DNA from: Nanobdellota archaeon
GTDB lineage: Archaea > Nanobdellota > Nanobdellia > Tiddalikarchaeales > Tiddalikarchaeaceae
DNA length: 64,000 nucleotides
Reading direction: 5' to 3'
NCBI GenBank assembly: GCA_016931175.1
Contig: JAFGFH010000006.1
Coordinates: 1 to 64,000 of the forward strand
The notes under the pieces are model-generated. The model was not told the origin of the DNA, did not search any database, and saw only the letters and a list, made by a program, of their open reading frames with translations. This document shows, piece by piece, positions 7,180 to 51,056 of this stretch (position 1 is the stretch's first letter; each line of letters starts with the position of its first letter). A program made the translations under genes and the position numbers.

Positions 7180-7583
7180 TAAAAGCAAGATTCGTGATTG
7201 AAGCCATGGGCTCACCCCAGGAACTAGTTAAGGATACTTTGAAGAACATGCTTGAAGCCATAAAGCAAAAGTTCAAGGTTGAAGAGTCATTTATAGAGAA
7301 GCCAAAAAAGAGCGGGGAAAAATTTTACACCAGCTTTATTGAATTAACAGTCCAGTTCAAAAACGTTCAATTCCTCTTCGAATTCATGACTTATTACACT
7401 CCTACAATAGTTGAAATCCTTGAACCTTACAAGTTAGAGATAAGCGCTGGAGAGTTAGAAAACATATGCAATGACGTGATGAGCAAAATCCACGAAATGG
7501 ACAAGCGCTTAAAAACCAATATCAGCGTTAATAAACTGCTTTCCAGGCAGGTAATACAAAATAATACAAAAGAAAACGTTTAA
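7176..7583 (+). CDS. Hypothetical protein, 135 aa
   Basis: ORF overlapping the upstream stop by 4 nt (ATGA), suggesting coupling. Confidence 0.6.
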   Translation: MIKARFVIEAMGSPQELVKDTLKNMLEAIKQKFKVEESFIEKPKKSGEKFYTSFIELTVQFKNVQFLFEFMTYYTPTIVEILEPYKLEISAGELENICNDVMSKIHEMDKRLKTNISVNKLLSRQVIQNNTKENV

Positions 7584-7614
7584 AAAGCAAGAGTTTAACG
7601 TATTACTTACACAG

Positions 7615-7680
7615 CTTCTTATTTTGTAGTGGAAACCATAAGGTTTTCCTAAAAACACACACTAAAAGACTTATTTTGAG
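7615..7680 (+). promoter_or_regulatory. S-layer gene leader element: CTTCTTATTTTGTAG, hairpin GGAAACC-ATAA-GGTTTTCC, then TAAAAACACACACT...CTTATTTTGAGAAAT
   Basis: Hairpin at 7631-7649; sequence shared with 50572-50610; TATA-like TTTAAAAAG near 7580. Confidence 0.55.
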
Positions 7681-7698
7681 AAATAGGTGAAAAAAGAA

Positions 7699-10089
7699 AT
7701 GCAAAAATTGAAAAGAGCAATAAAGAAAGTCGCAGCTTTGGCTGGCAGTGCAATTATTGCAGCTTCTATGGTGACACCAGCAATGGCATCATTGGCAAAC
7801 TTGCCAAGCCCATTCATTAGCGGAGCAGGATTGTTCAACGCTAATGTAATCGTTGGTTCACAGACATGGAACGCATTAGTTGCTGGAGACCCAGCAGGAG
7901 TGGCAAGCGACTTAGCCGGAGCAATTGATGTTGCTGCAGCTTTCGCACAGAAAGCTTTAGCATCAGCAGGAGCTTCAGGAACAGTAACTCTGACAAGACC
8001 ACAAACACCAGGAACTTTGATGAACTCATCATCCCAGTACATGGGTATTGGTGACTCAGTAGGAAGTGCTGGAGTTAACTTGTTTAACGCAACAGTAGGT
8101 GGTTTTGAATGGTTAGTGAACAAGACAGCATCATGGAACAGTACAGATTACCCTGTTTGGGAAGTTTTGAGTTCAACAGCTCCAGCTGTATTGAACAACC
8201 AGGGAATATTCACAGACTACGGAGGTATAATTTTAAATATTACTTCCAACGGAACAGCAGTATTCCCAACACAGTTCAACAAGTTCCCAATGTTTGGAAA
8301 CGAGTACCAAATAATTGAAACAAGTACTTCAAGTGTTAAGTTCGGACAGATAAGTGAAGTAAAAGGAAACTTGTTTGGACAACCAGTTTCAATCGGTGAC
8401 AAAGCAACAATAGTTGTAACTGACTGGAACCAGGCGAACAGCAAGGCAAAGGTAACAATAACTGGTGCTGACGGCCACATATGGATAGATGACTATTACA
8501 GTGCGCCGTACACATTTGAGAACGGAACAAACGGGTATTCAGTAACACTGAAACAAGTTGTTATCTCAACAGTTCTTGGAAACAAATTTGATGTAGACTG
8601 GACAACTTCCTTGTTAACACTTGAGAACAACGGAAATGCAAGTGCTTTAGGAGTTCCTGCATTCGAGAACTGGACAGTTAAACTTTCAGCTTTACCAGCT
8701 GGAGGAGGCTTGCCTGGTAACTTGTCTTGGTTGGCTTTCACTAGTCCAACAGACATAAACAGTAGAATATCCCTAAACGTTGGAGAGTCATATGATGTTA
8801 TGGACTACTTCAGCTTGAACTTTGAAGGCTGGAGAGACAACAACATGACATCATTGAAGTTTAACAACATGGATGGAACTGCTTCAGTTAGTGACTTGTA
8901 CTACAACACTAACGAGTCAACTTCCAGATATAGAGGAATAAACCTTGATGGAGTTTCAGGAAACTGGGGAGCTTTAATACCAGGATCAGCTTCGGAAAGT
9001 AACAAAACCCAATCACCAATAGCTTTGTTGACATCAACCGATTACTTGTACTTCCAGTACTACAACGGTTCATGGGCAGACAACATGCACGCATTACCTG
9101 GCGGACAGCACATAATTGATGCAATAAGAATCTATGAAGGAAACACTCTTGTAGGTAACTTAAGTGCATTCAATTATACAAACAACGCAGTTGACTTCGG
9201 ATGGCCACAGGGTTGGGCATGGTTCAACCTATCAGGAGCAGTGTACAATATAAGTTTCAACAACATATCGTACAACATATCTCTTGTAAACTGGACATCA
9301 ACAACAGAGGCCAGCAGACCTGGTGATGACAACTTAGGTGGACAGTACTTTGGAAGCAACTTGAAGTGGACAACAACAAACGTGCACGAGTTTAACAACA
9401 ATGCTACAATGACTGGAACTTTAACTCTCACAGAAGGAGATGGAGCAACAGTTACTGTAACATACACACAGGGTGCAATATCAGGTGTTGATGTTTCAAC
9501 AGTAAGTGGTTCAAACGACTTAGCTGTTGGAGGAAGCTTGTACACAAGATGGGGTTCAATGTTAAGCAGAGACTCAGCAGGAATTGACTTAACATATGTT
9601 AACGCTAGAAGACAAGCTGACTTGTGGTTAGGTAGAAGCACTTCAGAAGAGACAAGCTTCTCAGTAGGAGACACTATAACAGGAACTACTTGGAAGGTTG
9701 GATCTGTAGGAGCAGGAGGTTCACCAGCTATAAACGACATAACACCAGGAATTGGTACTGTTGATACTAGTGTAGTATTCACTAGCTTATCAAAGCCAGC
9801 AATTCTCGTTGGTGGTGCCAGCGTAAACAAGGGTGTTTACGAATTAGGCAGCGCTGGTGTTAATGCTGCAGACTGGGAAGCTAACAGAGCTTACTTCCAA
9901 TTGGTTGAGAACGCTTTCGGAAGCGGACAAACTGTACTCGTAATCGCTGGTTTCGAAGCTAAGGACACTAAATTGGCTTGCCAACTAATGGCTGCTAAGA
10001 TAGTAGGACTTTCAAACCTAGCTTTAACTGGCAACCTTGTATGGTTGGACACTAGCGGAAGTACTTACAGCCAAGTTACTGTAGTATAA
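7699..10089 (+). CDS. S-layer protein (ORF track start 7687 is a GTG inside the likely RBS AGGTGAA; ATG at 7699 preferred)
   Basis: Signal peptide KKVAALAGSAIIAASMVTPAMA; FNANVIVGSQ...AGDPAGVASDLAGAIDVAAAFAQKAL N-domain and KPAILVGGASVNKGVYELG...GQTVLVIAGFEAKDTKLACQLMA C-domain resemble archaeal S-layer proteins (MJ-type). Confidence 0.82.
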   Translation: MQKLKRAIKKVAALAGSAIIAASMVTPAMASLANLPSPFISGAGLFNANVIVGSQTWNALVAGDPAGVASDLAGAIDVAAAFAQKALASAGASGTVTLTRPQTPGTLMNSSSQYMGIGDSVGSAGVNLFNATVGGFEWLVNKTASWNSTDYPVWEVLSSTAPAVLNNQGIFTDYGGIILNITSNGTAVFPTQFNKFPMFGNEYQIIETSTSSVKFGQISEVKGNLFGQPVSIGDKATIVVTDWNQANSKAKVTITGADGHIWIDDYYSAPYTFENGTNGYSVTLKQVVISTVLGNKFDVDWTTSLLTLENNGNASALGVPAFENWTVKLSALPAGGGLPGNLSWLAFTSPTDINSRISLNVGESYDVMDYFSLNFEGWRDNNMTSLKFNNMDGTASVSDLYYNTNESTSRYRGINLDGVSGNWGALIPGSASESNKTQSPIALLTSTDYLYFQYYNGSWADNMHALPGGQHIIDAIRIYEGNTLVGNLSAFNYTNNAVDFGWPQGWAWFNLSGAVYNISFNNISYNISLVNWTSTTEASRPGDDNLGGQYFGSNLKWTTTNVHEFNNNATMTGTLTLTEGDGATVTVTYTQGAISGVDVSTVSGSNDLAVGGSLYTRWGSMLSRDSAGIDLTYVNARRQADLWLGRSTSEETSFSVGDTITGTTWKVGSVGAGGSPAINDITPGIGTVDTSVVFTSLSKPAILVGGASVNKGVYELGSAGVNAADWEANRAYFQLVENAFGSGQTVLVIAGFEAKDTKLACQLMAAKIVGLSNLALTGNLVWLDTSGSTYSQVTVV

Positions 10090-27352: not shown

Positions 27353-27495
27353 CCCGCGGTAGCTCAATGGTAGAGCGTCTGACTGTAGATTTTACAGTCG
27401 AGGAGTGAGAATAACAACTTTAAACTGTTGTTTCAATGATACTCTTTTCAGCAGAAATCAGGAGGTTGGCGGTTCGAATCTGCCCCGCGGGACCA
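27353..27495 (+). tRNA. tRNA-Tyr(GUA) with 78-nt intron (27389-27466) at position 37/38; CCA encoded
   Basis: Manual fold: CCCGCGG/CCGCGGG acceptor (C1-G72), discriminator A + CCA, D-stem GCTC/GAGC, anticodon arm TCTGA-CTGTAG|intron|A-TCAGG, T-arm GGCGG-TTCGAAT-CTGCC. Confidence 0.93.
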
Positions 27496-49496: not shown

Positions 49497-49586
49497 GAAT
49501 AGTGAGAATAGTTGTTAGTTTATAACTTTATCGCAGGGGTTTTAATCCAAAAAACTTTAAAGTATAACTTATTAGTATTCTCTTTA

Positions 49587-50498
49587 ATGAGAAAACTATT
49601 TCTTTTATTAATAGTATTTTCTGCATTCTCAATAGTGTTTGCTGAGGATGTTGGAGCCAAGCTTAATTCTATTAATGTTGAGATTTTGATAAATTCTGAC
49701 TTATCAGTGGATGAATTTGTTACAGTTACTGGTTTTAACAATTACACTGTTAACTCTTCATATTTGTACGTTTTCCTGAATGATATACCTGATGATTTAA
49801 TCGTCACTGACGAAAACGGAACAGTTCTCAACCAAACTTCTTTTGTAGCTAATGGTATTTTTACAATAAGGATATTGGACACTATATCTCCTAAGAGTTC
49901 CAAAACTTATACTTTAAAATATTCCAATGATGATATTATTCAAAGATTTGACAACAACTTCGTATTCTCTTACTATTTCACTTCTTATTATAACCTCTCG
50001 GATTTCTCTCTTGAACTTGTTCTGCCGAAAGGGTTTGGTATAACTCAGAAAGATATTAATACCATATCTCCTCCGTCTTCAAGAATATTCTCAGACGGGC
50101 AGCAGATAATACTGGCTTGGGAGCAGGGAATTAATTACTTGGAGAGTAATATTTACTTGGTTTTCTTTGAAAGGATAGCTTTCGGGTTGTTCTCATTGTG
50201 GTGGATAATAGGTTCAGTATTATTGGGTGCAGGAATAGGGGCAGGTGTTACTTATTATCTTCTGAAGAGGAAGAGGAAGGATATTGTAACTATGGCTTTG
50301 ATAAGGGATGAGAAGCTCGTGGTTGATTATGTCTTAGACCATGATAATGAAGTGTTCCAGAACGATGTTGGAAAGGCTTTGGACTTTTCAAAACCAAAGC
50401 TTTCAAAGATAGTTCATAATCTTGAGGATAAAAAAATATTAAAAGTTAGTCCTGCAGGAAGGAAGAATAAGATATCTGTCAATAAGAAAGTATTATAA
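49587..50498 (+). CDS. Membrane-anchored transcriptional regulator: signal/ectodomain + TM + C-terminal winged helix (start corrected to 49587)
   Basis: Signal peptide MRKLFLLLIVFSAFSIVFA; TM SLWWIIGSVLLGAGIGAGVTYYLLK; wHTH VLDHDNEVFQNDVGKALDFSKPKLSKIVHNLEDKKILKVSPAGRKN. Confidence 0.78.
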   Translation: MRKLFLLLIVFSAFSIVFAEDVGAKLNSINVEILINSDLSVDEFVTVTGFNNYTVNSSYLYVFLNDIPDDLIVTDENGTVLNQTSFVANGIFTIRILDTISPKSSKTYTLKYSNDDIIQRFDNNFVFSYYFTSYYNLSDFSLELVLPKGFGITQKDINTISPPSSRIFSDGQQIILAWEQGINYLESNIYLVFFERIAFGLFSLWWIIGSVLLGAGIGAGVTYYLLKRKRKDIVTMALIRDEKLVVDYVLDHDNEVFQNDVGKALDFSKPKLSKIVHNLEDKKILKVSPAGRKNKISVNKKVL

Positions 50499-50505
50499 AA
50501 GAAAA

Positions 50506-50583
50506 AGGAAGGAAAAGAAAGTTACTGTATGCCGTTTGTTGCTTATTGCTCGTTACTGTTTACTTTCTGCAGTTTTCCTACCT
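50506..50583 (+). ncRNA. Candidate structured RNA: long imperfect hairpin (AGGAAGGAAAAGAAAGT / ACTTTC-tgcag-TTTTCCTACCT)
   Basis: 16 complementary bp with one mismatch and one 5-nt bulge, 39-nt loop; just after the wHTH stop. Confidence 0.5.
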
Positions 50584-50610
50584 ACACACACTTCTTATTT
50601 TGTAGAAATT
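50572..50610 (+). promoter_or_regulatory. Second copy of the S-layer leader element (GTTTTCCTACCTACACACACTTCTTATTTTGTAGAAATTAG)
   Basis: 18/21 identity with 7643-7663 and a downstream CTTATTTTG(t)AGAAAT match; also identical 15-mer to 7615-7629. Confidence 0.6.
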
Positions 50611-50882
50611 AGTAGTCTACCAGGCATATATAAAGGATTCGCTTTAACTGTTAAAACAATCATTTAATAAATTATCATATTGTATTTATTAATTATATAA
50701 ATAAACAATTATGGTTTATTTAAAGTTCAAATAGGACATTATCATAGTTGCGGTGTTTTTTACTTTTTTGCCTTTAAACATCAGGCATTTAATTAAGCCC
50801 CAATCCTTTATAAATGCTGTTTTTAACCGTTAATTTTAAAAAACATGATTTGTTTATGGAATTCATTAAAAATTGAGGTGGG

Positions 50883-51056
50883 ATGCAAATGTTGATTGTT
50901 AAGAAAGCTGCAAAGGAAGCTGCTAAGAAACTAAACGTAAGATTCCCTGACAGTTCAATTGACGGATTGGACAAGATAGTCATGGATATGTTGAAAGCAG
51001 CAACTGACAGAGCAAAGAAGAACGGAAGAGTCACACTTAAAGAGTTCGACTTTTAA
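50883..51056 (+). CDS. Histone-fold protein (DUF1931/Bd0055-like), 57 aa
   Basis: ORF below track cutoff with strong RBS GAGGTGGG: MQMLIVKKAAKEAAKKLNVRFPDSSIDGLDKIVMDMLKAATDRAKKNGRVTLKEFDF. Confidence 0.85.
   Translation: MQMLIVKKAAKEAAKKLNVRFPDSSIDGLDKIVMDMLKAATDRAKKNGRVTLKEFDF

Follow-up and report, generated by a model that had tools for sequence, protein, structure and literature searches.

Introduction

Very few archaeal small RNAs (sRNAs) have a defined mRNA partner. In Methanosarcina mazei, sRNA154 stabilizes the mRNAs of nifH, nrpA, and glnA1 and masks the ribosome binding site (RBS) of glnA2 (PMC5867862). In Haloferax volcanii, sRNA132 acts mainly on phosphate operons, and its regulon includes the gene of the surface-layer glycoprotein (PMC6560208). 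Two systems from outside the archaea are also relevant: the sRNA RoxS of Bacillus subtilis activates yflS by inhibiting 5'-3' exonucleolytic decay of the mRNA (PMC5419742), and miR-122 anneals at two sites of the HCV 5'-UTR, shielding the 5' end from exonucleases and favoring translation (PMC7460827; PMC10018354). The literature searched yielded no published sRNA of the kind that pairs with an S-layer leader, and no sRNA of a DPANN archaeon with a defined mRNA partner. Here, we describe a candidate for both.

Results and Discussion

Genomes compared

The window, that is, the whole 64,000-nt stretch of DNA analyzed, belongs to an uncultured DPANN archaeon of the Ca. Tiddalikarchaeales. Its genome (G000) was compared with four relatives (G001 to G004), the five genomes being all those available for the family (GTDB f__CG07-land) and representing three genera; G000 and G001 are congeneric, as are G003 and G004. 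G002 is the contig set CABMEV01 of isolate LFW-252_1, 'Ca. Tiddalikarchaeum anstoanum' (PMC8561730). The corresponding loci of the relatives were located by BLAST, with intergenic matches in G001 and G004 and, more weakly, in G003, while that of G002 was reached through the neighboring winged-helix (wHTH) gene.

A sequence shared by two loci and a predicted sRNA gene

An earlier note on this DNA had reported that GTTTTCCTACCTACACACACT (50,572–50,592) matches GTTTTCCTAAAAACACACACT (7643–7663) at 18 of 21 positions, and that CTTCTTATTTTGTAG is identical at 7615–7629 and 50,591–50,605. Both observations were confirmed, and within the window no more than these two places fit the joint 21-mer pattern when up to three mismatches are allowed, where 0.01 would be expected by chance. 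The interpretation placed on them fared differently. The element at 50.5 kb is not the leader of the adjacent histone-like gene, which has its own TATA-like box (50,807–50,814) about 200 bp further downstream. The hairpin proposed at 50,506–50,583 does fold as described, but its stability is below that of most shuffled sequences (z = +1.42; leader, z = −0.30). A plus-strand RNA leader was rejected, as no conserved promoter was seen on that strand and the fold was not above shuffles in stability. Nor is there support for a sense regulon element, which would need sense copies in several leaders: the pattern occurs at two places in the genome, one of them well upstream of the box of the histone-like gene. 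The shared element at 50.5 kb is instead the complement of the 5' end of a predicted sRNA; the relation between the two loci is thus one of complementarity, between an sRNA and its target, and not that of two copies of a leader common to two genes.

On the minus strand, all five genomes have a conserved BRE/TATA, a predicted RNA of ~90–125 nt, and a U-rich terminator. In the window, the BRE GCGAATCC and TATA box TTTATATA occupy 50,627–50,642 (minus strand) and are conserved in every genome as GAATnnTTTAWAWA. The predicted sRNA, of ~104 nt, extends on the same strand from 50,604 to 50,501, its 5' end being placed 30 nt downstream of the first base of the TATA box (with an uncertainty of ~6 nt) and its 3' end at the U-run of the terminator (50,495–50,511, minus strand), whose T-run is likewise present in 5/5 genomes. 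Directly upstream of the promoter lies the palindrome TTTAACTGTTAAA (50,643–50,655, minus strand), a candidate operator, of which AACAGTTAAA is conserved in all five; the palindrome followed by GAAT occurs exactly once each in G000, G003, and G004. Thus, the suggestion of a small RNA holds for the 50.5-kb locus, but on the minus strand and with a 5' end near 50,604 rather than at 50,500–50,525. Along the five-genome alignment, the conserved features are AACAGTTAAA, GAAT, TTTAWAWA, a guide that contains GTGTG, a loop resembling CAATAAGCAAC, CAG(T/C)AAC, and the T-rich end.

The first 34 nt (50,571–50,604, minus strand) form the putative guide region, composed of segment A (TACAAAATAAGAAG and TGTGTGT) and segment B (TAGGAAAACT; GGAAAAC). 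In the minimum free energy (MFE) fold, AGG/GGAAAA pairs with TTTTCC/CCT to give a terminal stem (50,507–50,583, minus strand), which is the hairpin of the earlier note. As long as the sRNA is free, segment B is masked by this stem, and the first ~20 nt stay single-stranded. A similar layout of 5' tail and terminal stem is found in four of the five genomes (first 15–21 nt unpaired, segment B within the stem), and G002 deviates.

A sequence-only model of the sRNA (R1) was scanned against 378 genomes of the class. The five members of the order gave a single strong locus apiece (E 2e-21 to 2e-30), and the 373 other genomes gave no credible match; the best match outside the order was judged to be due to chance, because it lies across a proteasome-like coding gene. 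No curated Rfam family reached its gathering score at the element. The sole Rfam match in the window is a tRNA at 27,353–27,492, a match of 140 bp, which implies an intron. The predicted sRNA is served by a promoter and a terminator separate from the target locus, which lies 43 kb away in G000, ~36 kb away in G002, and on a separate contig in G001, G003, and G004. Taken together, these computational results support the prediction of a sRNA gene of the trans-encoded type on the minus strand, conserved as one copy per genome.

Predicted pairing with the S-layer leader

The S-layer protein gene (7699–10,089, plus strand, start ATG at 7699; Pfam S_layer_C, PF05124) is present as a single copy in the genome. 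Its promoter, with the TATA box TTTAAAAA (7579–7586, plus strand) and the BRE GAAAACG (7572–7578), is conserved in 5/5 genomes, and in each of them the TTTAAAAA box is followed by a leader of ~86–116 nt before ATGCAAAA. Upstream of the BRE are the direct repeats GTAATACAAA/ATAATACAAA (7551–7570), possibly activator sites; AAGTAATAC-type repeats are found at this place in the relatives too.

Three sites were recognized in the leader, all on the plus strand. Site 1 (7609–7629), at the predicted 5' end of the mRNA, pairs with nt 1–21 of the sRNA at −23.4 kcal/mol. Site 2, GGTTTTCCTA (7642–7651), pairs with segment B and site 3, ACACACACT...CTTATTTTG (7655–7678), with segment A, jointly reaching −31.9 kcal/mol. 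The Shine-Dalgarno (SD) sequence AGGTGA (7685–7690, plus strand) lies outside the duplex. In every genome, the first 30–39 nt of the sRNA can thus pair twice with the leader of the same genome: with the 5'-terminal ~20 nt of the mRNA, as predicted, at −21.1 to −23.9 kcal/mol, and with a bipartite site upstream of the SD, made of the TTTTCC block and a second copy of the segment A target, at −22.6 to −34.0 kcal/mol. Site 1 begins at nt 1–2 of the mRNA in 5/5 genomes, the transcription start itself being a prediction, and the duplexes end 6–15 nt before the SD and 20–29 nt before the AUG, never covering either.

Several lines of evidence indicate that this pairing goes beyond chance. The energy between the 50-nt 5' part of each sRNA and its own leader (−24.7 to −38.0 kcal/mol) was reached by none of 1000 dinucleotide shuffles in any genome. 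Among the 120 possible assignments of sRNAs to leaders, the cognate one ranked first when either the full leader or sites 2 and 3 were scored, and third for site 1 alone, because the sites of G000 and G002 are nearly identical there. Exchanging the sRNAs within a genus (G000 with G001, G003 with G004) weakened total pairing in both cases. Moreover, four base-pair columns between segments A and B and their sites carry double changes. At the segment B/site 2 column, a C in the sRNA faces a G in the leader in G000, G001, and G003, while an A faces a U in G002 and G004; since G003 and G004 are congeneric, at least two changes must have occurred at this column. The other three columns, between segment A and site 1, show A-U versus G-C, C-G versus G-C, and A-U versus U-A. 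A 6-nt block is present in both the sRNA and site 1 in three genomes and missing from both in the other two. As exceptions, G001 is mismatched at two columns and G002 at one.

A tiling of 314 kb (35% of the genome; 15,682 tiles over both strands) placed the S-layer leader ahead of every other target once the complement of the sRNA itself was set aside, with top scores of −32.5 and −31.9 against −28.4 kcal/mol for the next (mean −12.9, SD 3.3), and no other target as strong was found in this part of the genome. In the whole genome of G000, the composite pattern TTTTCCT-N(0–25)-ACACACW occurs only twice, once in the gene of the sRNA and once in the S-layer leader; in G003 and G004 it matches solely the S-layer leader, and in G001 and G002 there is one other match each. 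In G000, the further copies that had been anticipated upstream of highly expressed genes were therefore not found. The earlier note had counted the lack of both a third copy and conservation in sister genomes against a shared element; there is no third copy, yet both loci are conserved in all four relatives. We conclude that the 5' end of the sRNA very probably coevolves with the S-layer leader by base pairing, a conclusion compatible with either sign of regulation. The sRNA is presumably transcribed and the duplex presumably forms in vivo.

Neighboring genes

Convergent with the sRNA and adjacent to it in 5/5 genomes is a gene (49,512–50,498, plus strand, probable start 49,587) for a membrane-anchored winged-helix protein, a candidate sensor. 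As read from the sequence, it has an N-terminal extracytoplasmic region and one transmembrane segment, followed by a C-terminal DUF7343/MarR-like wHTH domain. The TTTAACAGTTAAA palindrome abuts the BRE of the sRNA, and we tentatively propose that the wHTH protein controls the sRNA through it, binding being guessed from proximity. In the sequence downstream of its relatives in other families, read by eye, there was no such RNA. There, DUF7343 wHTH genes are followed by TTGTTTCATCTTGTTTCA-type repeats and the promoter-like sequence TATATTAAATA (loci L050, L052, L054, L056, and L058), and these are possible operators of that class of regulators.

The histone-like gene (50,883–51,056, start 50,883 or 50,889) encodes 57 aa with no significant Pfam match, the best being a weak one to DUF1931 (E 0.061). 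Its place next to the sRNA is kept in four genomes; the two are separated in G004 by an AlaX-like gene (L003:1825–2913). Between its TATA-like box and its start is the palindrome TTAACCGTTAA (50,824–50,836), also found in G001 and G003. This resembles the TTTAACTGTTAAA palindrome of the sRNA promoter, and the two genes may have a common regulator.

Proposed mechanism and sign of regulation

The sRNA, running from 50,604 to ~50,501 on the minus strand, would be dedicated to the S-layer mRNA. Because the first nucleotides of the free sRNA are unpaired and segment B is held in the stem, segment A could serve as a toehold. Site 1, which corresponds to the predicted first ~21 nt of the mRNA, and sites 2 and 3, which end just upstream of the SD, would both be paired; with up to two sRNAs bound per mRNA, the 5' end might be enclosed in duplex and the leader hairpins disrupted, leaving the SD and AUG free. 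If aRNase J, a 5'-3' exonuclease, were thereby denied access to the 5' end and the SD were kept open, the outcome would be activation or stabilization. Some of these steps could be examined computationally. The cost of opening the SD was 0.05–0.61 kcal/mol with both sites paired versus 0.40–4.09 kcal/mol in the free leader (five genomes), and in a comparison with rotated controls the real block positions came out among the best in 4/5 genomes. SD closure in the free leader was not above that of shuffled leaders in any of the five genomes, and release of the SD alone is therefore weakly supported; sequestration of the SD as the main switch was rejected on these grounds and is retained as a secondary effect only. 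A protein of the RNase J family (TIGR00649 match; activity predicted) is encoded in all five genomes, above the curated cut-off in four and shorter and below it in the fifth. Since the duplex at site 1 would close off the 5' end of the mRNA and an RNase J-family protein occurs throughout, we favor activation over repression, and 5'-end protection with open-SD activation is, with some reserve, the likeliest effect on the S-layer mRNA.

The same sRNA with the same pairing might instead repress, by blocking 30S loading or by recruiting an RNase, for example upon envelope stress, and we regard this as a possibility of real though lesser weight. MicA and RybB repress bacterial porins under envelope stress, and the sRNAs known to pair with mRNAs of envelope proteins are mostly repressors, a general trend that this reading would match. 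Of the leader stretch that precedes the SD, the duplexes cover ~40–63%, and a membrane-anchored regulator adjoins the sRNA, both of which would suit a repressor. Among the genes that sRNA132 downregulates in H. volcanii is that of the surface-layer glycoprotein (PMC6560208), and the opposite sign is for that reason to be reckoned with here. On the other hand, sRNA41 and archaeal repressors like it act by masking the RBS (PMC5867862), and the fact that the duplexes stop short of both SD and AUG in 5/5 genomes is evidence against occlusion of that type.

Returning to activation, the complete chain would lead from a membrane wHTH sensor to the sRNA, of which two copies on the S-layer leader would seal the 5' end and open the ribosome site, in a geometry like that of miR-122 on HCV; as a whole, this scheme is speculative and rather unlikely to hold in every link.

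Other readings of the two loci

Sequence identity between the loci could also mean that they share a site for a DNA- or RNA-binding protein, as a regulon element, without any RNA-RNA pairing. We consider this very improbable: the sequence varies among genomes yet remains complementary within each, the order and spacing of the blocks differ between the loci, of which the genome has only two, and the promoter and terminator on the minus strand would be left unexplained. Less probable again is a functionless relic, left by gene conversion or by the ancient duplication of a promoter-start segment. A local duplication probably did occur, given the likeness of leader sites 1 and 3; however, identity is confined to the pairing blocks and kept in three genera whose flanks have diverged, and G003 and G004 tolerate G-U wobbles. 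Least probable of all is that the RNA chiefly encodes a tiny peptide, as the GTG- or TTG-initiated ORFs of ~9–17 codons present in each genome's sRNA are not conserved in start, frame, or length, have no apparent SD, and include no ORF conserved across the five genomes.

Comparison with known systems

Like sRNA154, the RNA described here is predicted to be an archaeal, intergenic, trans-acting sRNA with a proposed mRNA-stabilizing mode (PMC5867862). It differs in having one apparent target, a guide at the 5' end, and two sites per leader, whereas sRNA154 has several targets and pairs through loops; the comparison between the two is one of features. The likeness to sRNA132 is that of an archaeal sRNA tied to an S-layer gene, direct pairing to the S-layer mRNA not being described in the available part of that report (PMC6560208). 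With RoxS-yflS (PMC5419742), the present system would share activation through a block of 5'-3' exonucleolytic decay, and an RNase J-family protein is encoded here as well, RoxS being bacterial and the mechanism here inferred. The likeness to miR-122 and HCV, a microRNA and a viral RNA, is in geometry alone. In this case, comparative genomics by itself identifies both partners, and the pairing between them, for the mRNA of a coat protein. With two sites per leader, including the predicted 5' end of the mRNA, the pair offers a direct and testable model of sRNA-mediated 5'-end protection in archaea.
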